Of a stretch of 35,830 bases of DNA, positions 1,431 through 35,830 are shown piece by piece; the first letter of the stretch is position 1, and each line of letters begins with the position of its first letter. The stretch spans positions 1 through 35,830 of the IMG/VR virus record IMGVR_UViG_3300018056_000004; one strand, written 5' to 3'. A model generated the notes under the pieces. It worked only from the letters and a program-made list of their open reading frames with translations. It did no database searches and was not told where the DNA came from. The DNA is from a virus. Position numbers and translations under genes: made by a program.

Positions 1431-1810
1431 TGGCCAAGCGCAACGGCCGGGGCAACAAGAACTTGCCCGCAAAAATCCCGCCCTATCAGCGTGGGCTTAA
1501 GCGTGGCGGAAACCCTGGCCCGCATCCTGGGGCAGGCCGCCCCGGTCTTGCCATTCGTCTCCGGGCGCAGAGTTACAGCCCCAAAGCACTGGAACTTGCC
1601 CGCAGTGTCCTTGAGGGTGAGGAGTTGGAGCCGCGCGTCGTGGACAAGGAAATCGTCTATACCGCGCCCACGAACCAAGCGAAGCTCGCGGCCGCTGAGC
1701 TTGTGCTCAAGGTGGCGGATGATCTGCCCCGTACGGGCGTAAACATCGAAGCTGGTGGCGATGTCACGATCAACGTGGTGCGTCTGCCGAAGGCGAACCG
1801 CGTTGCCTGA
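1430..1810 (+). CDS. Probable terminase small subunit (TerS)
   Basis: This protein of about 126 residues sits directly before the large terminase. The basic, Gly-rich N-terminus (MAKRNGRGNKN, then GGNPGPHPGAGRP) is typical of small terminase and related phage DNA-recognition proteins. It is followed by helical segments, including NQAKLAAAELVLKVADDL, and a short beta C-terminus with GDVTINVVRLP. Small terminases bind the packaging site and hand the DNA to the large subunit. I chose ATG 1430 because it overlaps the upstream stop as TGATG; a longer frame from 1364 would only add antisense-like residues. The call rests on position and general character, not on a specific diagnostic residue. Confidence 0.6.
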   Translation: MAKRNGRGNKNLPAKIPPYQRGLKRGGNPGPHPGAGRPGLAIRLRAQSYSPKALELARSVLEGEELEPRVVDKEIVYTAPTNQAKLAAAELVLKVADDLPRTGVNIEAGGDVTINVVRLPKANRVA

Positions 1811-3152
1811 ATGCACGGTTGAACTGATCGAGCTCCACCCCGGCCAGCAGAAGGTCCGGGATAGCCAGGCGCGCTTCCGCGTCGTGATGTGCGGCGGTCA
1901 GTCTGGTAAGACGACATTCGGGGTGGACGAGACCGCTGAGGCCATCCTTGCCGGCAAACGGGTCGGATGGTTCGCCCCGACGTTTCACTACCTCGCCGAG
2001 CCCCGCGACGAGCTGCACACCCGTCTCAGTGAGATCATCAAGGACCGCCAAAAGACCGAGAAGCGCACGACGTTCGTTACCGGGGGGCTGTTGGATCTCT
2101 GGAGTTGCGACGACCCAGACGCCGGCCGCGGACGCCACTATGATCTCGTCGTATTCGACGAGGCGGGGATCACACGGGAGTTGCAGGTTGTCTGGGAGCA
2201 GGCGGTCCGGCCGCGGCTCTCCACGCTTGAAGGCCGAGCACTCTTCCTCGGCACGCCGAAGGGGCGGACGCACTACTTCTCGCAACTCTTCGCCAAGGCT
2301 GAACAGGGCGAGCGGGACTGGGCAGCGTTCCGGTTCCGCACGATTGATAACCCGATCCAGAAGCCCGAGGAGATCGAACGGGCTCGGCACGAGCTGCCGC
2401 CTGCCGTCTTCGCGCAGGAGTACGAGGGCATCCCTGCGGACGATGGCGGCAACCCGTTCGGGCTCGACGCAATCATCGCTTGCACCATGACGCCGGAGGA
2501 ATGGATCAAGGCGCAGAAGCAAGAGACCATCGCGCGCGGTTGGGATTTCGGTCGTGCGCAGGACTACACCGCTGGCGTCGGCCTCGGGCGCAAGTACCAA
2601 GTCACGCGGTTCGACCGCTGGCAGCTCGTGCCGTGGCATGTCACCTACCAGAAGGTCACCGAGCAGACGGGTGGCGTGCCGGCGTGGGGCGACTCGACGG
2701 GCATCGGCGATGTGATCGTGGAGTCGCTGCAGACCATGGGCTGCCCGATCCAGGGCTATCTCTTCTCCCGCCCCTCGAAGCAACTCCTCATGCAGCGGCT
2801 CGCCTCGGTGATGCAAGGCCGACGGCTGAGGCTGCCGCCTCGCGAGCTGTGCCCGCTGGTGCCCGAACTGGAGACGTTCGGCTACGAGTACACGGCGAGC
2901 GGGGTGCGCTACACCGCGCCTGAGGGGATGCACGATGACACCGTGATGGCGCTTGCGCTGGCAGTCTACGGCCGCGACCAGTTTGGCGAACTGCCTGAGG
3001 TCAAGCCCGCGAAGGCGATGGGGGACGACGATCATCCCGGATTCCGGGAGAGCGGGGCACGCATTCGCCGGCCGACGGGATTGCCGGGCCGCAATCAACC
3101 GTCCCGCCCAAGCTTCATCCCCGGAACAGGTCCACTCGTGGAGGTCGAATGA
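1803..3152 (+). CDS. terL: Terminase large subunit (TerL), packaging ATPase/nuclease
   Basis: The motor that pumps phage DNA into the prohead and cuts it. The ATPase domain shows a Walker A, GGQSGKTT (about residues 31-38), a Walker B, YDLVVFDEAG, with D119-E120, and a coupling motif LFLGTPKG near 147-154. The RNase H-like nuclease domain supplies acidic residues D248 (GWDFG), D297 (WGDSTG) and D378/D379 (HDDTVMALAL). The length of 449 residues is normal. I chose TTG 1803 because GAAGG lies nine bases upstream and it overlaps TerS by only 8 bases. An in-frame ATG at 1755 would add 16 unconvincing residues and a 56-base overlap. The next gene overlaps its stop by ATGA. Confidence 0.95.
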   Translation: MPECTVELIELHPGQQKVRDSQARFRVVMCGGQSGKTTFGVDETAEAILAGKRVGWFAPTFHYLAEPRDELHTRLSEIIKDRQKTEKRTTFVTGGLLDLWSCDDPDAGRGRHYDLVVFDEAGITRELQVVWEQAVRPRLSTLEGRALFLGTPKGRTHYFSQLFAKAEQGERDWAAFRFRTIDNPIQKPEEIERARHELPPAVFAQEYEGIPADDGGNPFGLDAIIACTMTPEEWIKAQKQETIARGWDFGRAQDYTAGVGLGRKYQVTRFDRWQLVPWHVTYQKVTEQTGGVPAWGDSTGIGDVIVESLQTMGCPIQGYLFSRPSKQLLMQRLASVMQGRRLRLPPRELCPLVPELETFGYEYTASGVRYTAPEGMHDDTVMALALAVYGRDQFGELPEVKPAKAMGDDDHPGFRESGARIRRPTGLPGRNQPSRPSFIPGTGPLVEVE

Positions 3153-3723: not shown

Positions 3724-6506
3724 GCGGCGAGAATCCATTCGAAATCTCCGAAGCGCCGCAGACGACCGCGCGCCCTGAGCAGGGCATCGCGGGCCCGAAC
3801 CTGTTGGAGATGGAGGAAGCCGACGCCGCCAAGCGGATGATGCAGGACTGGGACCAGTCCCATAAGTACGTCCGCAACGACATCGAGATGTGGAAGGTCA
3901 ACGTCCTGCGCTCCGAGGGCTACACGGGCGTCCGGCTCAACAAGGTCCAAGACGAAGCTCGGGCCTACATCCCGTGGACGGCCACGCCGAACCTCACGGC
4001 GATGAACCAGGCGGGGCGGCTCAAGCGCCGAGTCCGAGCGCTGCTGTTTGCCGACCCCCCGCGGCTTGAGGGGACGCCGTCGAGTGACGAGGACGAGGAC
4101 CGCGACGCTGCGGAGTTCGCGACCCGCGTGCTGGACGACCAGTGCTCGGAAGGCAACCTCAGCTACAACATCAAGGCGGCCGATGCGTTCGACTCCGCCT
4201 CGGACTATGCCTCTGCCTTCATTCGGTTCTGGGTAGACCCCACGGGCGGTGGCTGGCGACCGAAGGAGCTGCAAGCCGCTCCCGTCCCGCAAGCGACGGC
4301 CCAGGACCCGCTCTACCAGCCCGGCACCCGTATCCCGTGGGCGAAGGAGGACGGGACCATTCCCGATCCCGTCATCCGCTACGTCAAGCAGGACGGCACG
4401 CTCACCGACCAGAAGAACGACCCCGACATCGTGATGCAGTGGCTGCCGAAGATCCGTGAGGAAGAACTGGACGGTCGGCACGTCCGGCTGATCCCGCACA
4501 CCGCCCGCGACATCTGGGATGCGCAGGGTGCGATGGTCGGGGCGATGGTCCCGCTCGGCGTCTTGAAAGGCATCTTCCCGCAGCTGATGCAGATGGCGCC
4601 GGAGAAGTTGCGCGAGATCGTCAATGCCCGGCCGACCAGCGCCAGGGACCTGCTCCCGAAGAGCCAGCAGCAGACGCCGAGCGATATCTCGGACGCGACG
4701 CTCGTGTTCACGCTGTCGCGCTACCAGTACCACGGCAGCACCTATCCGAAGGGCGCCTATCTCTGCTGCGCTGGCGCCGACACCATGCTGCACCGTGAGG
4801 AACTGTGGGACGAGACGCACGCCGAACCGCTCGACATCCCGATCACCCAGTTCAAGCAGTTCAACCGCAAGGACAAGCCGAACGGCATCGCGCTCATGGA
4901 CTTCTTGGGCCCGGGCAACGAACTGCGCGCGTACCTGTTCGGCTATTACCTCGACCATCTCGAGCGACTGGCCAACCGGCCGATCTGGGCGCCCGTCACG
5001 GGGGTCTACACCGACGAGCAGTTGCAGAATCCCATGGGGCAGGTGTTCCGCATCGTGCCGGGGACAGAGCCCAAGTATGGCGAAGTCCCTGATCTCCCGA
5101 ACGACATCAAGGATCTCTTCGTCGCGGTCAAGGATGACCTCAACGACGAAGCGGGGGTCTACCAGGAAGCCGCCGCCGGGACCAATCCGCCGGGGGTCAA
5201 ATCGGGCCTGCACTTTCAGCAGATCGTGGAGCAGACGACGCAGGCGCTCTCGGATCTCCGGCAGAACACGGAGCGCGGCTTCGTCCGCGGCGGGCGGATC
5301 ATCCTGCAACTCATTCGCGCGCGGTTCTCTGTGCCGACGCGGGTCAAGTGGACGGGGGACGACGGCTCGTACAAAGAACAGGCGTTCGTCGGGGCGGATC
5401 TCGGCTCGACGCGCGACGTGCGGATGGCGAAGGGCAGCTTTACCCAACTTGCCCCGAGTGCCAAGGCGGCGATGGCCGAGCAGATGTTTGCGGTCCGGGA
5501 CCCCGTCACGGGCGAGGGGATACTCGGCATAGACGAACTCCGCTCGGTCATGTCGGGCAACGTCGGTGGGCAACTCGCGGTGCAGGACAATCCGCACGTC
5601 AACCGCGTGCGCCGGCAGATCAACATGTGGCGGAAGGGACCGCCGCAAGGCGCGCAGCCTCCGCCGCCGATGCTGGACCCGACCACGGGCCAGCCAGTGC
5701 AGCCGCCCGATCCCGTCGCGGCCGGCATCTTTGCCCCCGTGCCGGCAGACGACGAGCCTGCCGTGGCCCGGCTGCGTGCCTACGAGCTCGGCCGCGCTAT
5801 CGCGTCAACGCGATTCGGCCGCTGGCCCGCGCCGTGGCAGCAGGCGATCGCGGACGAGTACATCCGGATGCGCCAAGCGGCAGGGATACAGACGGTCGCA
5901 GAACAACAGGCGGCGGCGCAGCAGCAGCTGGATGCCCAGAACCAGCAGGCAATGGTGGCCGAGCAGGCCAAGGATCAGACCGCGCAGCAGCAGCAGAAAT
6001 TGGTGGCGGAGATTCAGGCCATTCAGCAGCAGATCAAGGCCACGCAGCAGCAACTCGCCCAGCTCCGGAAGGCGATCGAGCCGGCGATCAAAGAAGCCGT
6101 CGCCCCGATTGCCGAAGCCGTGGAGACGGTCAGCGGCGAAGTCCAGGAACTCGCCAAGGCCCAAGGGCAGGGTGCCGAGCAGTTGGCCAAGGTCGGGCAG
6201 AACGTGGCCGATGCGCTGGACGAGCAGGAGGAAGAACTGCGTGGCAAGCTCGAAGCCCAGCAGGAGAAGCTGGAGGAGCGGGTGCTCCGGCTGGCGGAGA
6301 CGCTGAAGCCGGGCGCGAACACCGTCAATCTGCCACCCGGCGAAGAGCACGCGACGGCGTTGTCGCAACTGGCGGACGCCGTGGAGAAGCTTGCGAATCG
6401 GCCGACGAGTTTCAAAGTCGTGAAGCGGGAAGGTGGCAAAGTCATCGAACCTATCGCAGCCTCGAATGGAGACGAGCATGGTGAAGCCGAAGAGCCCCTA
6501 TCGTAG
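3720..6506 (+). CDS. Portal protein with long Q-rich coiled-coil C-terminus
   Basis: This 928-residue protein follows terL and precedes the capsid genes, which is the usual portal position. The portal is the dodecameric ring through which DNA enters and leaves the head. The N-terminal two thirds have portal-like character, with long helices and sequences such as YIPWTATPNLTAM, GPGNELRAYLFGYYLDHLER and FQQIVEQTTQALSDLRQNTE. A Pro-rich linker (QGAQPPPPMLDP) leads to a C-terminal region of about residues 726-865 that is extremely Gln- and Ala-rich and almost certainly coiled coil. This may correspond to the extended barrel of P22-type portals, or it may be an added tail. It is clearly longer than common portals of roughly 500-730 residues. 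Its start overlaps the preceding stop by ATGA. Confidence 0.85.
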   Translation: MSGENPFEISEAPQTTARPEQGIAGPNLLEMEEADAAKRMMQDWDQSHKYVRNDIEMWKVNVLRSEGYTGVRLNKVQDEARAYIPWTATPNLTAMNQAGRLKRRVRALLFADPPRLEGTPSSDEDEDRDAAEFATRVLDDQCSEGNLSYNIKAADAFDSASDYASAFIRFWVDPTGGGWRPKELQAAPVPQATAQDPLYQPGTRIPWAKEDGTIPDPVIRYVKQDGTLTDQKNDPDIVMQWLPKIREEELDGRHVRLIPHTARDIWDAQGAMVGAMVPLGVLKGIFPQLMQMAPEKLREIVNARPTSARDLLPKSQQQTPSDISDATLVFTLSRYQYHGSTYPKGAYLCCAGADTMLHREELWDETHAEPLDIPITQFKQFNRKDKPNGIALMDFLGPGNELRAYLFGYYLDHLERLANRPIWAPVTGVYTDEQLQNPMGQVFRIVPGTEPKYGEVPDLPNDIKDLFVAVKDDLNDEAGVYQEAAAGTNPPGVKSGLHFQQIVEQTTQALSDLRQNTERGFVRGGRIILQLIRARFSVPTRVKWTGDDGSYKEQAFVGADLGSTRDVRMAKGSFTQLAPSAKAAMAEQMFAVRDPVTGEGILGIDELRSVMSGNVGGQLAVQDNPHVNRVRRQINMWRKGPPQGAQPPPPMLDPTTGQPVQPPDPVAAGIFAPVPADDEPAVARLRAYELGRAIASTRFGRWPAPWQQAIADEYIRMRQAAGIQTVAEQQAAAQQQLDAQNQQAMVAEQAKDQTAQQQQKLVAEIQAIQQQIKATQQQLAQLRKAIEPAIKEAVAPIAEAVETVSGEVQELAKAQGQGAEQLAKVGQNVADALDEQEEELRGKLEAQQEKLEERVLRLAETLKPGANTVNLPPGEEHATALSQLADAVEKLANRPTSFKVVKREGGKVIEPIAASNGDEHGEAEEPLS

Positions 6507-11601: not shown

Positions 11602-12180
11602 ATGACGATAAACTTTAAGATATGCACTCGGTGCAACGAGTCCAAACCGCTGCGCGAGTTCTACAAGCGATCGCAGAAAGCCACGCGCCAGTCGTGGTGT
11701 AAGCCCTGTCTCAAAGCACTGGCGCGGGAGCGAGGCAGAGATCCTGCTGTGCGGGCGGCTCGGGCTGAGTACCATCGGCGCTTTTACAAAGTGCGGCGCG
11801 AAGAAATCCTCGCCGCAATGCGGATGCGCCACGCGAAGCTAAAGGGGACGCCCGCCTACGATGCGGCCCGCTATCGCTGGAGCCACAAGACGCAACTCAA
11901 GAAGTACGGGCTAACGCCAGAGGACTACCAGCGCATCTGTGACTCGCAAGGTGGCCTCTGTGCGATCTGCGAGCGCCCCGAAACGAAAGTAAAGCGCGGG
12001 CGCGTATGCCGACTATCAGTAGACCATCACCATGGCACTGGTCTCGTGCGCGGGTTGCTCTGCGATACCTGCAACAACACGCTCGGCACTTCGCGAGACA
12101 GCCCGACCATCCTCCGACGTGCGGCCGACTATCTCGAACGTCAGCGACTCCCGCTCGGGCTCGTCGCTGAGGAGAACTAA
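11602..12180 (+). CDS. Endonuclease VII-type HNH nuclease, probable free-standing homing gene
   Basis: The C-terminal half is a clear recombination-endonuclease VII domain. It has YGLTPEDYQRICDSQGGLCA, zinc cysteines C120/C123 and C154/C157, and the active-site region DHHHGTGLVRGLLCDTCN (D141-H144). The N-terminal part has two further Cys pairs (C8/C11 and C33/C36) forming a likely extra zinc finger, then a basic helical linker. Such enzymes cut branched DNA (T4 gp49) or act as homing endonucleases. Placement between the capsid gene and small head genes, after a hairpin gap, favours a mobile homing gene over a replication function. A role in resolving DNA before packaging remains possible. 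Confidence 0.88.
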   Translation: MTINFKICTRCNESKPLREFYKRSQKATRQSWCKPCLKALARERGRDPAVRAARAEYHRRFYKVRREEILAAMRMRHAKLKGTPAYDAARYRWSHKTQLKKYGLTPEDYQRICDSQGGLCAICERPETKVKRGRVCRLSVDHHHGTGLVRGLLCDTCNNTLGTSRDSPTILRRAADYLERQRLPLGLVAEEN

Positions 12181-23113: not shown

Positions 23114-23811
23114 TGGGCGTCGCCAAGGGACTCGTCACTGCGCTGAGTCGGGGCTTGATCGGATACCAGCAGGGCACGCGGCTCGGTCGCGAAGAGGAAC
23201 GCGCACGCGGGCAGGAAGAGTCGGATCGCGCTGTCCAGGCGCGTCGCCAGATTCTGGAAGAGCGGCTGCTCAACGAACGGCTCACCGATATCTCCAGCAC
23301 ACGGGAAGTGGCGGGCACGAAGCTCCGACAGACGAGTGAGGCGGCGGCCCGGCTGCGCCAAGATCCGCGCTACAAAGCTCTGCACGGCTTGCCGGACGAG
23401 GACTTGGTTGGGGCAGCGGCGGAGGTTGCGACGCATCCCGAGCGGCGGCAGCGCCCCGACGCCACGGGCCGCACTGGCGCGGGCGGCGTCGATGAGCGCG
23501 CGGTCGTCAACATGGCCAACCGCCTGTTCGAGAACGACGAGTACCCGACCTGGGACGAAGCCTACTCGGAAGCGCTCCGGCGGATGCAGTCGGCGGGACG
23601 ACTCCGCGGGCTCGACCCGGGCAAGCAGACACACGACGCACGCCGGCCGATTGACGTGCCCGATACCGTGCGCTCCTATATCGCGGGGCAAAATCGTGGC
23701 CCCACGCGCACGAAGTCGCCAGCGCAGTGGGTGAGCGAAGTGCGCACCGAGCATCCCGACTGGAGTCCTGAGCAGATCGCGGATGAGGCCCGCCGCCGGG
23801 CGGGTCGGTGA
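23113..23811 (+). CDS. Probable internal virion/ejection protein C (232 aa)
   Basis: A short N-terminal helix (GVAKGLVTALSRGLIGYQQG) is followed by highly charged long helices (REEERARGQEESDRAVQARR, RQILEERLLNERLTDISST), then a loop-rich region and a C-terminal helical segment (SPEQIADEARRRAGR). No enzyme motif is visible. It lies in the ejection-protein block, between the Gln/helix-rich protein and the giant protein, and overlaps the latter by GTGA. Structural or ejection role by context. Confidence 0.55.
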   Translation: MGVAKGLVTALSRGLIGYQQGTRLGREEERARGQEESDRAVQARRQILEERLLNERLTDISSTREVAGTKLRQTSEAAARLRQDPRYKALHGLPDEDLVGAAAEVATHPERRQRPDATGRTGAGGVDERAVVNMANRLFENDEYPTWDEAYSEALRRMQSAGRLRGLDPGKQTHDARRPIDVPDTVRSYIAGQNRGPTRTKSPAQWVSEVRTEHPDWSPEQIADEARRRAGR

Positions 23812-26800
23812 GTCCCCTCCAAGACGACGACGATTTTCTCGCTGAGGCCAAGCGCCAAGCGGGGGAGCAGGATGATCCCTTCCTTGTAGAAGCGGAGCGC
23901 CAGCACCGCGGTCTCGGGGCAACCATCAAGCGCTCTGCTCGGGCAACCCTGCGCAACACCATCGCTCTGCTGACGGAAGGCCCGAAGCAGTTCACCGGCG
24001 GGTTGGCCCAGTCGGGCCTCGCCACGCTGCGTGGCGCGGAACGTCTGCTGACGCCCGTCACGCCCAGCGCTGGCGGATTTGGGGCGTTCGCGAGCGAGCC
24101 GCCGCCACCCGACCGGACGATCCAATCGACGCCCGTGCAGCGACTCACCGAAGAGATCCGCGAGACCTATGGCGAGCCGGAGTCTACGCCAGGTACCGTT
24201 GCGCAACTGGCGGGCCGGTTAACGGGTGATGTTGCCCAGTACGCCAGCGGAGCGCGTGCGCTCGGCGCCGTCGGGGCGCTGCCCAAAGGGACGGGCGTCG
24301 GGGCGCGGGTCGCTCGCGGTATCGTCGGCGCTGCGCCGGTGGACGTGGCGCAGTCGGCGGCGGGACCCGAGCAGTCGAGCCTCGGCGCCGTGGCGGAGCT
24401 CGCCGACTCGCCAACGCTGCGGCGGGCTGCACGGTCCACACCGCTCCGGGTCGCGACGGAAGTCGGCATCGGCGGGTTGCTCAACGTTGGGGCCGAGTTG
24501 ATCGGCGACCTGCTGAAACGGGCGCGGGATGTCCAGAAGGCCGCACGCCAAGCGGGGCGCCCTGAAACCATCACCGAAGTAGACGCCTTGGCGAACGAGG
24601 CGCGGGACTTGTCGCTTAAGACGGATCGCACGCCGGAAGATGTGGAGCGCGTCCGGTTGCTCGGCCGACGGATTGAGGAACTGAGTGCCGATGTCCCGGC
24701 CGCCCCCCCTGTGGAAGAATCGGCACTGGCGCGGAGCGCTGAGCCCGAGCCGTTGCCCACGGACATCATCGAGCGGGAGCGTCGGCGCTACCCCGTCACG
24801 GAAGCGAGCAACCTCCGACGTCGGGCGACCGATGTTGCGGGCGATGAGTTTGATCGTGCTGCCCGGGAAATGGCGGCTACGCCACCTTCGGTTACCCCAC
24901 TTGAGCAGTCTCTTGAGATCGGCCCAATGGGTGCCCAACTGCTCCGCGCGATCAAGCGGAACCCGAAAATGACCATTCCAGGCATCTTCGAGGCATTTCG
25001 GCGGCGTGCGCGCGGTGGTGCCGGTCCGACTATGAGCGAAGTGCAGCAGAAGGTCGCCGAGCTTGAATCGCGCGGCCTCATATCCCGCTCGTGGGACGCG
25101 CAGGGCAATCCACGCTATCGTGCCGCCTCGCCTGCCTCCACGGCGCGCGCGCCTGGTGCCCCCGCCGATGAGGCGGCCGTACAGCAAGGGCTCTTCGGGG
25201 AGCGCACACTGGCTGGCCGTGAGCAGACCGAACTGCTGTCCGAGACGGCGGGCGTGCCGACGGCGCGACTCCGGGAGACGAAGATCCAGCCGGACGAAGT
25301 AGCCCGCGTGCGGCGTGAGGGCGCGGAACCGGAAGGCGCGCAACCCATGGCGCTGCCCCTCGGGGAGCGGTCGAAGAAGTTCACGAAGATGGACGATCCC
25401 GGGCTTGAGAGTCGGTACTTCCAGATCCTCGACCGGATGCAGGAGAGTGGTCGGGTGGCGTGGGAAGGCACGACGCCGTGGGTACGCAAGGCGGAGCGCT
25501 CGGCGGATGCTGGCACGAGCGGCGCCGGTCGCGGCTTCGGCGGCTACTCCCGAGAGAAGCCCGTCCTCTCGGGCAACGCGGTGAGTAACAAAGCGGGCCG
25601 CGCCATGGGCCGGATGAAGGACGACTCCCGCATCGCCGCTGAGCTGGAAGCCGAGCTCGCCGCGCGCGGCATCAGTCACGACGACGTACTGGAGCGCTAC
25701 CTCGTTCGCCAGAGCCCGCAGGAGACAGCCGACGAGGCGATAGAACGGGCGGCCATTGAAGCCGAGGGAAAGGGCGAGATGGGGGCCGCGAATCGGCGGC
25801 TCGTGGCCTTGCTCGCTCGGACGGGGTTGGGCGGTACGGCAGGCGGGACCGTCGGTGCACAGATCGGAGGCACGCCGGAAGAGCGCCACCGCAACGCCGT
25901 CATCGCCGCCATCGTCGGCGCTGGCGGTGCCGCCGTCGCGCCTCGGCTGCTGCCCAAGAGCCGTGCAGGCATCACGAGCGCCGTCCCCGACGTCAGTCGC
26001 GCAGCTCGGGGCGCCTTCGCCGAAGGGCCGCAAGCGGCCAAGGCCGCAGCGGGGCCGATCAATCCTGACGACTATGTGAACGTGGCCAAGTTTGCGCTCG
26101 ACCCCGGCGGCGAGAAGCGGCTTCGCAACGAGGTCACGCGCGTCGTGGAGGCGGAAGGCCTGCATCCCAAACAGCGGATCTCGTGGACCGAGACGAAGCG
26201 CATGGCGGCGACCATCGGCCTGCGCCCGCAGGACCTCGTGCAGCGGGAAGCCGCACGGCTCAACGGCGCGGAGATGCTGGCCATTCGCAACATCGTCTCG
26301 ACCAACGTGGATGCGATCGAGGGCATGTCCAAGCGGCTGGGCGATGCCACGCTAACGCCCGAGCTCAGGGAACGCTTCGAGCGCGCCATCTCCGGGCTCG
26401 AAAGCCAGAACGACGCCCTGCTGGGCAAGTTCGTCCAAGCGCGTTCCGCTGCCGGCCGGGACCTGAACAACCTGAAGATCCTCGCCAACCGCACACTGGA
26501 CCCCGTGACGTGGCTGGTGAAGACGCAGCGCCTCACCGGAGACGCGGGGTTCACGCCCGAAGTCCGTACCAACGTCCTGCGGCTGATCCACGAGGGCGAT
26601 CGAGCGGGGCTCGTCCGGTATCTCGCCTCCGTCCGGCAGACGCCCTGGTACGAGAAGATGACCACGCTCTGGAAAGCCGGGCTGCTCACCAACCCCAAGA
26701 CCCACGCCGTCAACATCACGTCGAACACGACGATGGCGATCCTCGAGACGGCGAAGGATAACCCCGCCGTCGTCTTCGACCGACTGATGAGTCTGTGGAC

Positions 26801-28301
26801 CGGGGAGATCACGAAAGCCCCGACCACACTGGCGACGCTCGCGGCCTCGGCCAAAGGCGCGCGGCAGGGCGCACGGGATGCGTGGCAGATCCTCAAGGGT
26901 CAGGGCAGTGCCGACGCGCTCCAGCGCTTCGACATCCCGCGTGAGGTGAACTTTGACAACGCGATCCTGGACACGTACACGAAGACCGTCTTCCGGCTGC
27001 TCGGGGCCGAAGACCGTGTGTTCCGCGGCGCTGCCCTCCAGCGTTCCCTGTCCGAGCAAGCGCGCATCTTGGCCAGTCGGGAAGGGCTGAAAGGCCGCCC
27101 CCGCTCGGCCCGGATCGTGGAGCTCTTGGAGTCGCCGACTGACGAGATGGTCCTGACCGCGATCCGCGATGCGGAAGTGGCGACATTCACCGACGTCACC
27201 GAACTGTCGCGTGGTATCAGCGGGTTCTTCGGCCAGCTCAAGAGTCCCGCCTTCAGGACGGCTGCGGAGTTCGTGCTGCCGTTCAAGCGCACACCGGCGG
27301 CTGTGGCGACGCGGGTCTTCGAGTATTCGCCGTTCGGCTTCGTCGGTGGGGCTGCCGATGCGTGGAAGGTGTTCCGCCAAGCAACCAAAGGGCACACCGT
27401 CACCGCGCTCCAGAAGCGCGCGGCTGAACGGCTGGGCCGCGCCACGACCGGAGCCTCAGCGATCCTCGTCGGCATGTGGCTCTACGAGAAAGGGCTTGCG
27501 ACGGGAGCGGCGCCGTCGTTCAACACGCGCGAACGCGAGCAGTGGCGGACCGAGGGGAAGCAGCCGAACAGCATCCTGATCGGTGGGAAGTGGCGCAACG
27601 TCGGCCGCTTGTCGCCGCTGGGCAACGTCATCGCCTTGGGCGCGAACATGGCCCACGCGCTGGATGCGAACAAAGAGCAGACCGTGGCAGGGCGGTTCGC
27701 CGAACTGGCGGCTGGGACCGTGCGCACCGTGGCGGATCAACCGTTCGTCACGGGCATCCGCCAAGCCACGGAAGCCGTGCTGAGTCCTGAAGAGGCGGCG
27801 GCCGAGTTCGGGACGAATCTCGCCGCCTCCGCCGTGCCGGCTGGTGTTGCCGCCATCGCCAGAACCGTAGACCCGACCATCCGCCGCAGTCAGGGTGTCG
27901 GCCAGCGGATTCAGAGTCGCATCCCCGGGGCGTCGAAGGGCCAGCCCGCCGTGCGTGATGTGTTCGGTAAGGAAGCCACGCGAGAGCCGGGCGTCATCGC
28001 CAACATCTTTGACCCGACGAGTCCTAGCTCCGACCGTCGTGTAGACGACCCGCTGATTCGCGAGATGAGCCGCGTCGGCGCGGCGATCGGGCGACTGAAG
28101 CGGGACAGTGACGAGACGCCAGAAGCGTTCGAGCAGCGGCAGATCACCTACGGTCAACGGTTGCGGACTAGGCTCGAGCGCGTCGTGCGTGGGGAGGTCT
28201 ACCGTCGCGGGGATGCAGAGAAGCAGGCAGAGATGCTCGAGGACGCCGTCACGGATCTGCGTCGCCAGATGTCGCGGCGCCGCCGGAAGCGGAGCGCTTA
28301 A
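23808..28301 (+). CDS. Giant internal virion/ejection protein (1497 aa)
   Basis: The largest gene in the window, starting with GTG 23808 in a GTGA overlap. Features in order are an acidic start (QDDDDFLAEAKRQAGEQDDP), amphipathic and hydrophobic stretches, and a winged-helix-like segment near residues 365-440 (TMSEVQQKVAELESRGLISR followed by WDAQGNPRYR). A Gly/Ala-rich hydrophobic segment lies around 660-720. The signature AGLLTNPKTHAVNITSNT near residue 956 is a pattern typical of large polyvalent virion proteins. A hydrophobic helix (ASAILVGMWLYEKG) is near 1205 and a charged C-terminal tail ends RRQMSRRRRKRSA. No transglycosylase or protease motif was found. By size and position it plays the role of the T7 gp16-like ejected core protein. 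Confidence 0.75.
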   Translation: MSPLQDDDDFLAEAKRQAGEQDDPFLVEAERQHRGLGATIKRSARATLRNTIALLTEGPKQFTGGLAQSGLATLRGAERLLTPVTPSAGGFGAFASEPPPPDRTIQSTPVQRLTEEIRETYGEPESTPGTVAQLAGRLTGDVAQYASGARALGAVGALPKGTGVGARVARGIVGAAPVDVAQSAAGPEQSSLGAVAELADSPTLRRAARSTPLRVATEVGIGGLLNVGAELIGDLLKRARDVQKAARQAGRPETITEVDALANEARDLSLKTDRTPEDVERVRLLGRRIEELSADVPAAPPVEESALARSAEPEPLPTDIIERERRRYPVTEASNLRRRATDVAGDEFDRAAREMAATPPSVTPLEQSLEIGPMGAQLLRAIKRNPKMTIPGIFEAFRRRARGGAGPTMSEVQQKVAELESRGLISRSWDAQGNPRYRAASPASTARAPGAPADEAAVQQGLFGERTLAGREQTELLSETAGVPTARLRETKIQPDEVARVRREGAEPEGAQPMALPLGERSKKFTKMDDPGLESRYFQILDRMQESGRVAWEGTTPWVRKAERSADAGTSGAGRGFGGYSREKPVLSGNAVSNKAGRAMGRMKDDSRIAAELEAELAARGISHDDVLERYLVRQSPQETADEAIERAAIEAEGKGEMGAANRRLVALLARTGLGGTAGGTVGAQIGGTPEERHRNAVIAAIVGAGGAAVAPRLLPKSRAGITSAVPDVSRAARGAFAEGPQAAKAAAGPINPDDYVNVAKFALDPGGEKRLRNEVTRVVEAEGLHPKQRISWTETKRMAATIGLRPQDLVQREAARLNGAEMLAIRNIVSTNVDAIEGMSKRLGDATLTPELRERFERAISGLESQNDALLGKFVQARSAAGRDLNNLKILANRTLDPVTWLVKTQRLTGDAGFTPEVRTNVLRLIHEGDRAGLVRYLASVRQTPWYEKMTTLWKAGLLTNPKTHAVNITSNTTMAILETAKDNPAVVFDRLMSLWTGEITKAPTTLATLAASAKGARQGARDAWQILKGQGSADALQRFDIPREVNFDNAILDTYTKTVFRLLGAEDRVFRGAALQRSLSEQARILASREGLKGRPRSARIVELLESPTDEMVLTAIRDAEVATFTDVTELSRGISGFFGQLKSPAFRTAAEFVLPFKRTPAAVATRVFEYSPFGFVGGAADAWKVFRQATKGHTVTALQKRAAERLGRATTGASAILVGMWLYEKGLATGAAPSFNTREREQWRTEGKQPNSILIGGKWRNVGRLSPLGNVIALGANMAHALDANKEQTVAGRFAELAAGTVRTVADQPFVTGIRQATEAVLSPEEAAAEFGTNLAASAVPAGVAAIARTVDPTIRRSQGVGQRIQSRIPGASKGQPAVRDVFGKEATREPGVIANIFDPTSPSSDRRVDDPLIREMSRVGAAIGRLKRDSDETPEAFEQRQITYGQRLRTRLERVVRGEVYRRGDAEKQAEMLEDAVTDLRRQMSRRRRKRSA

Positions 28302-32641: not shown

Positions 32642-33601
32642 ATGACCGACACGAAAGAGAAGGCCCCCGCTTCAACGGCAGTCGCCACACGCGCACCTGC
32701 GACCCTGTACGAACGGCTCCTCGCCCTCTCCAAGACGCCTGCGGAGCGGGAGCGGGCGTTTGCTCTCGCCGAGAAGTATCAGCAGCAGCAGCTCGTGCAG
32801 GAACTCGTCGCTGAAGTCAAAGCCAAATCGTGGGGCAACAACGTCAGCCCAGCTCTGCGTGTTGAGATCGTGCGCTGGACGCTCGAGAACGGCGGCGATC
32901 CGGTGACCGAGGTCGATATCCTTGGCGGCTCGCCGTACCTCAATGCGCGCTACTGGATGCGACTCGTCGCGGCGGAGCCCGACTTCGTGAAGGCAGAGGA
33001 AGTGTGGGTCCATCCCGACCCACGCGCGACGGACGAGGAGAACGCGAAACGGAAAGACCTGCGCATCCAGTATGCGATTCCCGACGAGATCGCGGCAACG
33101 GTTGGCGTGTTCGGCGACGACAAGCGCGCTGCGGCAGCGAAGCGCCCGCCCGTTCCCATCAAGGCAGCGGTGCTGGTGTTCCTCTACTTCCGGGGGCGCG
33201 GGCCGTTCATCGGGAAGAAGTGGAGTCCGTCGCGCGCCAACGACGACGTCGGCATGGACCATCCCGAGGCGAGTGCGCTCACGCGGGCATGGCGCAAGGC
33301 GGCGCTCGGAGGCGTGCGCCGGACTCCACCGTTCAGTAACAAGCTCACCAATCTCATCGTCGCGCAGCGCGTCGCCGACCAGGCTGGTGGGCAGGAACCC
33401 GTCCTCGGCGTCCCGGCCGCGAAGCCGTTGGACGGGATCGGCGGCGAGGCGGTGCCAGCGATGACGAGCATCGGGGCTGGCGACAGCCGTGACCCCTACA
33501 GCGACGAAATCATCATGACGAAGCACAACCCGAACGCCTTCTGTAACCGGGAAGGCGATCACCCGATTGACGAATGTCCGCTGGGCAAGACGAAGCCGTA
33601 G
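32642..33601 (+). CDS. Possible RecT/Erf-like single-strand annealing protein (319 aa)
   Basis: ATG 32642 follows GGAGG. After a low-complexity start and a Gln-rich helix (AEKYQQQQLVQELVAEVKAK), the segment ALRVEIVRWTLENGGDPVTE, DILGGSPYLNARYWMRLVA recalls the core of phage annealing proteins (a helix, then a beta element leading to 'Gly-x-x-Tyr-Leu-x-x-x-Tyr'). A GRGPFIGKKWSPSRANDDVG loop and helices follow. The C-terminus has AFCNREGDHPIDECPLG, a C-x5-H-x4-C pattern that could bind zinc. Position in the early region next to a HerA-like ATPase fits DNA recombination. It is a weak call by motif style; a different DNA-processing role is possible. Confidence 0.4.
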   Translation: MTDTKEKAPASTAVATRAPATLYERLLALSKTPAERERAFALAEKYQQQQLVQELVAEVKAKSWGNNVSPALRVEIVRWTLENGGDPVTEVDILGGSPYLNARYWMRLVAAEPDFVKAEEVWVHPDPRATDEENAKRKDLRIQYAIPDEIAATVGVFGDDKRAAAAKRPPVPIKAAVLVFLYFRGRGPFIGKKWSPSRANDDVGMDHPEASALTRAWRKAALGGVRRTPPFSNKLTNLIVAQRVADQAGGQEPVLGVPAAKPLDGIGGEAVPAMTSIGAGDSRDPYSDEIIMTKHNPNAFCNREGDHPIDECPLGKTKP

Positions 33602-33954
33602 ACGGTCGCCCTGCGGGGTGGCAAGGCCAGTGGGGGACCGGACTGCTGAAACGGTGGTTCGGTCCCTGGCATCCTGAGTTTGGCCCGTGCTGCAAGTGCG
33701 GCATAGAGACGGATCGCTGGTTCATCGGAGCGAGCAGCGGGAGTCCGGTGCGATCGACGCTGCACATCCTCGAAGCGTGGCCGTTCTGCGAACGGTGTGA
33801 GCGGCGTGCGGACATCGTGAGACTGGAGCAGCGGCAATTGAACTTGGAAATCTACCCTGAGCAGAGGGCGCGCGAAGCGGTGTATCTCGCGGAACTAAAG
33901 GTAGCGGAGGCCAACGTCCAGGCGATCCTCAACGGCGTGCCGGGCGTCGTGTGA
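33574..33954 (+). CDS. Cys-pair early protein, zinc-binding type (126 aa)
   Basis: The gene overlaps the preceding one by 28 bases; ATG 33574 is the only clear start. Two Cys pairs, PCCKCGIETDR and PFCERCERRADIV, separated by about 30 residues, form a likely zinc ribbon. A helical C-terminal part follows (EQRAREAVYLAELKVAEANV). The N-terminal segment is Trp/Gly-rich (GWQGQWGTGLLKRWFGPWHP). The role is unknown; zinc-ribbon proteins in early regions often contact DNA or RNA polymerase. Confidence 0.55.
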   Translation: MSAGQDEAVDGRPAGWQGQWGTGLLKRWFGPWHPEFGPCCKCGIETDRWFIGASSGSPVRSTLHILEAWPFCERCERRADIVRLEQRQLNLEIYPEQRAREAVYLAELKVAEANVQAILNGVPGVV

Positions 33955-34301
33955 TTTGGCTCGTCTACATCATCGGCGGCTGCATCTGCCTTGGGCTCGT
34001 CATTGCCGTGTGGGAGCAGGTCACTGGTAAGGCGATGGGCGACTTGTTCCCGCAATCGGGGCTCAATGAGTTGCCGCTCCCCGGTTCCAAGTACATCCCC
34101 ATCGGCACCCCCGTGCTCAGGCTGAAGGACGAGGGAGCCCAGCGCGACCGTGGCGACGAGAACACGGACATCGTGACCGAAGGGTTGGGCCGCTCCCGGA
34201 AGCGCTTCGAGCCGCCGCTCGATCCCGGGCACGTCACGAATTGGGCGCTGCTGAAGCCCGAGGAACGAGCGCTGTGGCTCGAAGCCATGGAGCACCAGTG
34301 A
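33951..34301 (+). CDS. Single-helix membrane protein (116 aa)
   Basis: GTG 33951 overlaps the previous stop by GTGA. One N-terminal hydrophobic helix (WLVYIIGGCICLGLVIAVW) is followed by a soluble region with PLPGSKYIPIGTPVLRLKD and a charged segment, ending in a helix (LKPEERALWLEAMEHQ). It should be anchored in the inner membrane with the bulk on one side. There is no signal cleavage site. Its role is unknown; small early membrane proteins may affect host physiology or superinfection. Confidence 0.6.
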   Translation: MIWLVYIIGGCICLGLVIAVWEQVTGKAMGDLFPQSGLNELPLPGSKYIPIGTPVLRLKDEGAQRDRGDENTDIVTEGLGRSRKRFEPPLDPGHVTNWALLKPEERALWLEAMEHQ

Positions 34302-34495
34302 ATCTCACTGAGGGCGAAGCTTCGGGACTCTCGGGCCCCGACGTGTTGCGGCTCTTCATCGAAGTCGCGGACGCGGAACGAGAACGGTGCGCGGCGCTGG
34401 CCGAGGAGTACGGCACCCGACTGACAACGAGCGGGAAACACAACGAGGCCATGGTAGCTATCACCATAGCCGCACAGATCCGAGCGAGGAAATGA
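34298..34495 (+). CDS. Small helical early protein (65 aa)
   Basis: GTG 34298 overlaps the previous stop by GTGA. The sequence has one long helical region, with ADAERERCAALAEEYGTRL and ITIAAQIRARK, resembling a short 'ERERCAALAEE...AAAIRAR'-style element found in many phage early proteins. The function of that element is not established. It has a single Cys. The stop overlaps the next ATG by ATGA. Confidence 0.55.
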   Translation: MNLTEGEASGLSGPDVLRLFIEVADAERERCAALAEEYGTRLTTSGKHNEAMVAITIAAQIRARK

Positions 34496-34758
34496 CCAAG
34501 GCGACACTTGAAGCATTGGCCGCGCACCTGGAGGGCCGCGACGTGCGCGCGATTGTGCGGGGCCAACTCGATGGCAAGACGTTTTGGGTGCTGTTCGGAC
34601 CGGCCGACTCTGGCAGCGGGTACCGCGTGGACAATTACGTCCGGAAGAATGGGAAGTGGCAGCCTGGCGGGGACAGCATCGAGGCCGGTGATGAGGTGAG
34701 CGATGGATGGGACCTGCTCGGCTCGCTGTTCGTCCGCGCGTTCACGGCGGCCGCGTGA
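34492..34758 (+). CDS. Hypothetical early protein (88 aa)
   Basis: ATG 34492 overlaps the previous stop; AGGA lies just upstream. The protein has a helical start (TLEALAAHLEGRD) and a mostly beta C-terminal body (VRAIVRGQLDGKTFWVLFGP, GYRVDNYVRKNGKWQPGGDS), with no Cys or membrane segment. No motif is recognised. It directly precedes, with a GTGA overlap, the HerA-like ATPase and may be its partner. Confidence 0.55.
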   Translation: MTKATLEALAAHLEGRDVRAIVRGQLDGKTFWVLFGPADSGSGYRVDNYVRKNGKWQPGGDSIEAGDEVSDGWDLLGSLFVRAFTAAA

Positions 34759-35830
34759 CCGGCTCTGTGCGGTTCGGGTACGAAGTCGGCACGGGGAAGC
34801 CCGTCGAAATCCCGATTCACCACATGGTCATTACCGGGCAAACCCAGATGGCCGGGAAAACGACCGCGTTGGAAGCCCTCGTCGCGCGCTCCGGGGTGCA
34901 GGCCGTGGCGTTTATCACCAAGCGCGGCGAGGGCTCCTTCGGCGATGCGCGGATCATCCGCCCCTACTTCGAGGAGCATACCGACTGGAAGTTCGTCGCG
35001 GCCGTGCTGGAGGCGAGCCGCGGCGAGAAGCTGAAGTTTGAGCGGCCGTGGATCGTGCGGGCGTGCAAGGGCGCGCGGACGCTGGCCGACGTGCAGAAGA
35101 ACGTGCGGAAGGCGATGGAGACGGCCAAGGGTCTCGCCGGCGACGTGTACCTGATGCTCAACGCCTATCTCGAAGATGTCGTCCCGCAGATCGGGCGGAT
35201 CAAGTGGGCCGACACGGTGGACCTCGCCCCCGGGGTTAGTGCGATGGACCTGACGGGCGTGGGGACGTCGATGCAGCACCTCATCATCCGCTCAACGCTG
35301 GACTGGGTGCTGGAGCACGGCGTTGACACGGTGGTCGTCATCCCTGAGGCGTGGAACTTCATTCCCCAGCGCTACGGGACGCCGGTCAGGCTTGCGGCCG
35401 AGCGCTACATCCGGCAGGGCGCGGGGCTCGGCAACTACCTGTGGCTGGACAGTCAGGACATCGCGGGCGTCGATAAGGCGATCCTGAAGCAGGTGCCGGT
35501 CTGGATTCTCGGCGTGCAGCGTGAGTCAAACGAAGTGAAGCGCACGCTGGCGCAGATTCCTACGGGCATCAAGGAGCCGAAGCCCGAAGCCATCGCGACG
35601 CTGAAGCTGGGCGAGTTCTACGTCTGCCACGGCACGAGCATCACCAAGACCTATGCGCAGCCCCGGTGGATGGGTGACGCAGAGGCAGAGGCGGTCGCAC
35701 GTGGACTCGTCCCGGCGGCCGGGGCGACGACGCGCGCACGCATGGAGAAGCGCCTGAAACCGGACCCCGAAATCGTGGAGGACGACGTGACGCCAGAACG
35801 TGCAGAACAGTTGGAGCGCGAGAACGCCGA
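34755..35830 (+). CDS. HerA/FtsK-superfamily ATPase, truncated by the window edge
   Basis: GTG 34755 overlaps the previous stop, and the frame stays open to the last base, so the C-terminus is missing. The 358 visible residues show a P-loop, ITGQTQMAGKTTALEALVAR (G28 to T37), but with five rather than four residues between the first Gly and GKT. The Walker B-like stretch is VVVIPEAWNFIPQ, with E198 and Pro in the usual Asp position. A later SQD motif (S233-Q234-D235) lies in NYLWLDSQDIAGVDKAILKQ. This layout fits HerA/VirB4/FtsK-type motor ATPases that act on DNA or export. A role in recombination, resection or segregation is likely; packaging is not, as TerL is present. A charged, coiled-coil-like C-terminal portion begins at the edge. 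Confidence 0.75.
   Translation, partial: MTGSVRFGYEVGTGKPVEIPIHHMVITGQTQMAGKTTALEALVARSGVQAVAFITKRGEGSFGDARIIRPYFEEHTDWKFVAAVLEASRGEKLKFERPWIVRACKGARTLADVQKNVRKAMETAKGLAGDVYLMLNAYLEDVVPQIGRIKWADTVDLAPGVSAMDLTGVGTSMQHLIIRSTLDWVLEHGVDTVVVIPEAWNFIPQRYGTPVRLAAERYIRQGAGLGNYLWLDSQDIAGVDKAILKQVPVWILGVQRESNEVKRTLAQIPTGIKEPKPEAIATLKLGEFYVCHGTSITKTYAQPRWMGDAEAEAVARGLVPAAGATTRARMEKRLKPDPEIVEDDVTPERAEQLERENA

Follow-up and report, generated by a model that had tools for sequence, protein, structure and literature searches.

A HerA-type ATPase gene at the end of a phage contig

The window, an IMG/VR virus record that is linear and 35,830 bases long, ends inside a gene whose sequence marks it as an apparent member of an undescribed family of ring-type DNA motors carried by many uncultured bacterial viruses. 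The part of the gene that is present probably encodes the N-terminal two thirds of a HerA-type, ring-forming ATPase belonging to the replication/recombination module of a tailed phage, where the protein may act as a DNA translocase, possibly as a replication motor. The evidence that the protein serves phage DNA replication or recombination is moderate, and that for any single mechanism within replication/recombination is weak. A literature search for the family or its motifs retrieved no description.

The ATPase gene extends from a GTG start codon on the plus strand (34755..35830), and 358 codons are present; its 3' end is lost, because the reading frame is still open at the contig end. Its start overlaps by 4 nt the end of the preceding 88-aa gene (34492..34758, plus strand), which the first-pass annotation had termed a small partner gene and which could be assigned to no family. 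The ATPase gene is the last of a chain of four linked by three successive 4-nt overlaps, which also includes a 65-aa gene (34298..34495, plus strand) overlapped by 4 nt at each side and, at the head of the chain, a 116-aa gene (33951..34301, plus strand) with no family match. The window ATPase protein itself has no Pfam match.

The window phage encodes a classical terminase large subunit (TerL; 1755..3152, plus strand; phrog_2, 7e-37; Pfam Terminase_6N, 1.3e-9), and the HerA-like gene is therefore not its packaging motor. Besides the terminase, the phage has genes for a head protein and for a portal weakly similar to P22-type portals, as well as a repressor-like gene, and it is therefore tailed and probably temperate. 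No replication protein was recognisable in the window phage, whose contig ends inside the ATPase gene, and no tRNA and no Rfam match turned up in scans of the window. An Endonuclease VII-like gene (11602-12180; phrog_2633, 1.5e-33) lies directly after the head protein gene, and a 1,497-aa protein (23808-28301) resembles an internal virion protein family in its C-terminal part (phrog_6651, 5.7e-14).

Further upstream of the ATPase gene, a 319-aa gene (32642..33601, plus strand) had been termed a possible annealing protein in the first-pass annotation and was at first read by eye as RecT-like. It is conserved in three other contigs, the three relatives displaying 51-61% identity, but it has no Pfam match and no RecT-like profile match, and its best PHROG match reaches only E 0.12; the annealing identity is thus not supported. 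Members of this 319-aa protein family and of the motor family co-occur in the contig of L083/L099.

Discovery and distribution of the family

A scan of viral contigs with the window protein as single query revealed no relatives, and the family was first reached through a DNA pattern for the β4 motif GN[YF]LWLDSQD, which identified nine loci whose proteins are 41-67% identical to the window protein. An alignment of the nine-locus proteins led to 46 loci in viral contigs and five in GTDB genomes (L094-L097 among them), the latter all MAGs, titled Steroidobacter, Chloroflexi, Deltaproteobacteria, Ignavibacteriae and Proteobacteria. The search patterns contained neither the odd P-loop nor the Pro-Glu Walker B described below. 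Near-copies (L104, L124, L134 and L143) were removed before counts were made, leaving 47 loci, with L124 replacing L122 for the upstream analysis. Relatives were found by tblastn neither in 50,697 phage records (four queries: the window protein and three divergent full-length members) nor in 72,556 plasmid records (two queries: the window protein and one full-length member).

Most full-length relatives comprise about 510-610 residues: among the 45 loci with both gene ends in the contig, 37 encode proteins of 509-608 aa, seven of 78-429 aa and one of 704 aa. In L142, L143 and L144 the motor gene is interrupted after only 128 or 78 codons, through either sequencing error or decay, although the contigs otherwise resemble one another.

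Fold and domain architecture

The single-chain AF2 model of a relative, L099 (532 aa; mean pLDDT of 86.9), displays a HerA-type core fold with a helical bundle inserted after β2. HerA proteins were the best Foldseek hits of this model (3e-14), and VIA superposed its residues 1-336 on residues 117-475 of the S. solfataricus HerA chain (Z score of 26.9 and rmsd of 4.9 over 290 residues). Among the VIA matches listed, which cover mainly residues 1-336 of the model, the same fold was recognised in the C-terminal domain of DndH/DptH (Z score of 23.0 and rmsd of 3.5 over 284 residues), the conjugation ATPases VirB4 (Z score of 23.0) and TrwB (Z score of 17.6), STIV B204 and further HerA-type ATPases that package viral genomes (Z score of 18.3) and the FtsK motor (Z score of 17.6). 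By hhalign, the family aligned with a profile of 13 HerA rows over 231 columns (score of 58.9, E 1.9e-6); a TerL profile aligned over 20 columns with a score of 16.8, and the scores of five shuffled HerA profiles were 13.3-15.5. Fold and profile comparison thus provide strong evidence that the family lies on the HerA branch of the HerA-FtsK ATPases, and the first-pass reading of a HerA/FtsK-type motor is supported.

Broad profiles (FtsK_SpoIIIE, AAA_10, NCBIfam HerA and CedB) match the 38 aligned members only weakly. NF040937 (HerA) matches 7/38 members (best 2.3e-4), far under its 800-bit cut-off, which is also missed by all 16 bacterial genomes matching that profile; the CedB model matches two of the 38 (3.4e-5) and PF01935 another low count (2/38, best 0.37). 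Defining features of HerA were tested for and not found, and the proteins are therefore filed, from their sequences, as a putative new family on the HerA branch rather than as HerA proper.

The family shares with archaeal and bacterial HerA (HerA-NurA, SIR2-HerA and DUF4297-HerA) the RecA-type core, the helical-bundle insertion and basic residues near pore positions. In contrast with HerA, the family lacks the HAS barrel, which docks NurA in D. radiodurans HerA according to the excerpt of PMC9960219 consulted here: the protein begins about 27 residues before the P-loop Gly, in agreement with the alignment of model residues 1-336 with HerA 117-475. A second difference is found C-terminal to the core, where a coiled coil (345-381) leads through a disordered stretch to a winged helix in the relatives. 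The winged-helix domain is modelled with a pLDDT of 92, and its best VIA rows are Fur-type regulators with a moderate Z score of 9.9 (rmsd of 2.1 over 70 residues); Foldseek gave no match for this domain at E 0.001 or better, and the MCM_C profile matches 6/38 members (best 6.6e-5). Two members, L127 and L128, end at about 348 aa and have neither coiled coil nor winged helix. The likeness to DndH/DptH includes a short profile match (E 0.11), but DndH/DptH belongs to a DNA-modification restriction system, genes of which were not seen near the family. Likewise, no conjugation genes that would recall VirB4, TrwB or CedB appear in the 25-family tallies of the family neighbourhoods.

A rebuilt ATP site

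The evidence that the ATP site is rebuilt identically in all members is strong. Translation from the GTG at 34755 confirmed the P-loop GQTQMAGKTT (residues 28-37; 34836..34865), in which five residues separate Gly from GKT, so that the loop is one residue longer than usual; this G-x5-GKT arrangement is present in 50/50 family loci that hold the region. The Walker B motif PEAW, in VVVIPEAW (residues 197-200; 35343..35354), carries Pro in place of the first acid, and PEA[W/R] was found in 47/47 loci (46 by regular expression plus L127). Kept across all these loci, the two features are not due to chance. The SQD pointed out in the first-pass annotation is likewise present, within β4 WLDSQD (residues 230-235; 35442..35459), where the sensor Gln 234 is kept, D232 is a new invariant residue and D235 is near-invariant. 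Two further catalytic changes, which that annotation had not listed, were identified: at the β2 tip, TKRGE (34917..34931) replaces the HerA D-x-x-GE with Thr in the Asp position, and residue 223, where HerA has a trans-acting Arg, is Ala (invariant R220 to residue 223, 35412..35423). All these motifs are on the plus strand.

In an alignment of 38 members, K35, T36, K56, P197, E198, R220, D232 and Q234 are each conserved in 38/38, and E59, the Glu of the GE motif, in 37; T55, at the Asp position of HerA D-x-x-GE, is Thr in 37/38 and residue 223 (E+25) is Ala in 36/38. The Walker B Glu and the sensor Gln are 36 residues apart both in the family and in HerA, and this part of the alignment therefore needs no gap. 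R220 lies at E+22 and D232 at E+34; in the aligned HerAs the E+34 position is occupied by a hydrophobic or small residue. The consulted excerpt of PMC9960219 lists K175, T176, D220, D487, E488 and the trans R513 as the working residues of D. radiodurans HerA. E488 corresponds to E198, D487 to P197 and R513 (E+25) to residue 223, with the placement of D220 and R513 resting on the text of that excerpt (C-terminus of β2) and on residue spacing, as the D. radiodurans sequence is outside the alignments.

The first-pass annotation had described the Pro as standing in for Asp. An acid is indeed replaced, but solved HerAs usually have Glu at this position (EEAH in 5/5 alignments listed), while D. radiodurans HerA has Asp there according to the same excerpt. 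According to the portion of PMC9599734 consulted, the Walker B acid is an almost strictly conserved Asp that gives way to Glu in several cases, and the Pro of the family falls outside that description. Activity is not certain, because three HerA catalytic positions are lost, including the near-strict Walker B acid. Nevertheless, dN/dS values of 0.04-0.21 among the close pairs listed, where dS is not saturated, indicate purifying selection, and the change of the ATP site is therefore not one of decay. These values and the changed but conserved site residues support, at the level of sequence, the earlier proposal of a protein that is likely functional but specialised. We infer that D232, K56 and R220 compensate for the lost residues.

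Genomic context and candidate functions

A replication initiator is located within 3 kb upstream of the motor gene, on the same strand, in 10 of the 39 loci with enough DNA, and none was recognised in the remaining 29. The count comprises loci with an O-like profile match, to which L110 and L113 were added, as were L109 and L107 by PHROG; L111 (fragment only), L096 (other strand) and L125 (downstream) were left out. The O-like profile is confined to one part of the tree (one label change; support 56/42). Two contigs of 45.0 and 42.7 kb display a lambda-like order of integrase, repressor, small genes, O-like gene, motor and late genes; no gene for DnaB, DnaC or a polymerase was recognised in them. 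All 10 initiator-adjacent records lack both DnaB_C and IstB/DnaC, which is not a significant exclusion since the other records mostly lack them too: DnaB_C was found in 2/41 records (a set including the record of L084 and not the window) and IstB/DnaC in 2/41 (a set including the window and not the record of L084). L101 has DnaB after the motor gene.

No single partner gene recurs throughout the family. PHROG matches near some members include RusA, RuvC, primase, RecT-like and Ku-like genes, and Pfam matches include integrase, ParB, resolvase, AAA_24 and methylases. These neighbours were scanned among 112 of the 135 proteins called downstream and among 137 proteins upstream (161 called with at least 100 aa, 202 in all) plus four relatives of the 32642 gene product; one L138 and one L144 range were re-cut for the upstream scan, L131 and L140 were left out of the tallies besides the four near-copies, and the SbcD, RusA (L084), VRR-NUC and GpA-terminase readings were made by eye from translations. 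Ku-like DNA-end-binding genes are encoded on the opposite strand at L106 (16069-16920; PHROG Ku-like match, 2e-45), L111 (5958-6809), L112 (14511-15914) and L114 (8719-9573). At L116, a second HerA-like gene (5180-6451), with a standard P-loop, GASGAGKS, and a DPEGEF motif, was recognised by eye about 3.5 kb ahead of the family member in the same phage contig.

Several of these neighbours would suit an end-processing motor that works without NurA, in which the ring would feed the ends of phage DNA to an unrelated nuclease and an annealing protein, yielding recombination substrates. They include the RecT-like gene upstream of the motor (545 aa) in L102, RusA and RuvC resolvase-like genes in L107 and L103, a gene in L099 that comes directly after the motor and reads by eye as VRR-NUC-like, the Ku-like genes near the motor in four loci, one of them PHROG-confirmed, and SNF2 or Pif1-like neighbours. 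However, the NurA-like partner nuclease that the first-pass annotation had proposed to look for was absent, PF09376 matching 0/41 virus records, which may be fragments, against 7/14 positive controls; the barrel to which NurA docks is missing, no nuclease is constant, and the annealing protein of the window is unsupported. A dedicated end-processing role therefore appears doubtful. What survives of the suggested recombination or resection machine is the context, which points to a replication/recombination module; its NurA and annealing partners do not.

The order of parts recalls FtsK, in which the motor is followed by a winged helix (FtsK γ). A sequence-directed pump of the FtsK/TraB type, whose winged helix would read a polar motif on phage DNA while the ring lines up or partitions genomes or powers a site-specific recombinase, would also accommodate the ParB-like genes near some members, the integrase gene that overlaps the motor gene in L099 and the PF01580 (FtsK_SpoIIIE) profile, which matches 12/38 members weakly (best E 0.021, below its cut-off). 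In contrast, the fold of the core is nearer to HerA than to FtsK (Z scores of 26.9 and 17.6, respectively) and most loci have no adjacent integrase or ParB, which makes such a pump unlikely. The family might instead be a catalytically dead or slow nucleotide switch, an ATP-binding ring that serves as clamp or scaffold and does not translocate, as the replacement of the β2 Asp, the first Walker B acid and the trans Arg finger could suggest. Against this, little or no variation is seen in the Walker A Lys and Thr, the Walker B Glu, the GE Glu, the sensor Gln and the basic pore-loop residues, and the new charged residues are invariant, a degree of conservation that exceeds the needs of binding alone; a switch is thus improbable.

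A genome-packaging ATPase is suggested by the name of phrog_2666 ('terminase large subunit'), which matches 30/38 members (best 2.2e-7), and by the frequent location of the motor gene on the strand of TerL, 3-8 kb ahead of it: TerL is on the motor's strand in 23/24 records (window excluded) and 2.7-7.8 kb downstream of it in 11 of the 24 (linear distance, two near-copies included). The phrog_2666 name is not specific, since the profile also matches 14/14 control genomes; the motor has no profile match to TerL, and a true TerL is encoded separately in 25/41 records, the window included (17 and 10 by two models, two shared). A terminase identity was rejected on these grounds and on the TerL profile score of 16.8, and packaging is very unlikely. 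The presence of TerL also separates the family from STIV B204 and similar proteins, which are viral and share the fold but package genomes without a terminase, as the consulted part of PMC7824862 describes for tecti/cortico-like viruses. An anti-defence role, for which the first-pass annotation had allowed and on which no evidence was found either way, or one in superinfection exclusion, is scarcely credible: HerA rings do partner effectors in defence systems (SIR2-HerA and DUF4297-HerA are among the structure matches), but the family has no HAS barrel, no effector gene was recognised alongside, and it sits in a replication block.

Proposed mechanism

As a motor of the replication/recombination module, the protein would assemble as six subunits that form a ring on duplex DNA, with the DNA held by the basic pore-loop residues R/K207, K/R212 and K/R298. 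The winged helix would tether or direct the ring to phage DNA, at an origin, fork or end, in place of the docking of NurA or defence effectors on a HAS barrel. ATP would be bound via K35 and T36 and hydrolysed with E59, E198 and Q234, while D232 in β4, together with K56 and R220, would take over from the lost Walker B acid, β2 Asp and trans Arg finger. The ring could then move or open duplex DNA during phage replication and recombination. Set against this explanation are the three lost HerA catalytic positions, the 29 of 39 loci without a recognised initiator, the lack of a constant partner, the absence of the winged helix from L127 and L128 and a window phage without recognisable replication protein.

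A more specific form of the proposal is tentative at best: a HerA-core phage replication motor that follows an O-like initiator in place of a DnaB/DnaC gene in lambda-like genomes, with a winged helix acting like the C-terminal one of MCM, the Mg-binding acid shifted from β3 (Walker B) to β4 (D232), and R220 as the new trans Arg. A replication role is plausible and not new in principle, because HerA-like genes of archaeal mobile elements have already been placed with replication genes, at least in the portions of the sources consulted: arCOG00280 is annotated as a 'possible viral DNA pumping ATPase or viral helicase' (PMC4158269), and the HerA-like helicase of the casposon AceAut-C1 is grouped with replication genes beside a DnaC-like loader (PMC4046053).

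The replacement of the Walker B acid, the β2 acid and the Arg finger of HerA under strong purifying selection constitutes a natural test of what ring ATPases need, and the family could show how a ring motor works without the textbook parts of the ATP site. If the family does drive phage replication, HerA rings would gain a role beyond end resection, packaging and defence, and the missing replication helicase of many uncultured temperate phages would be explained.
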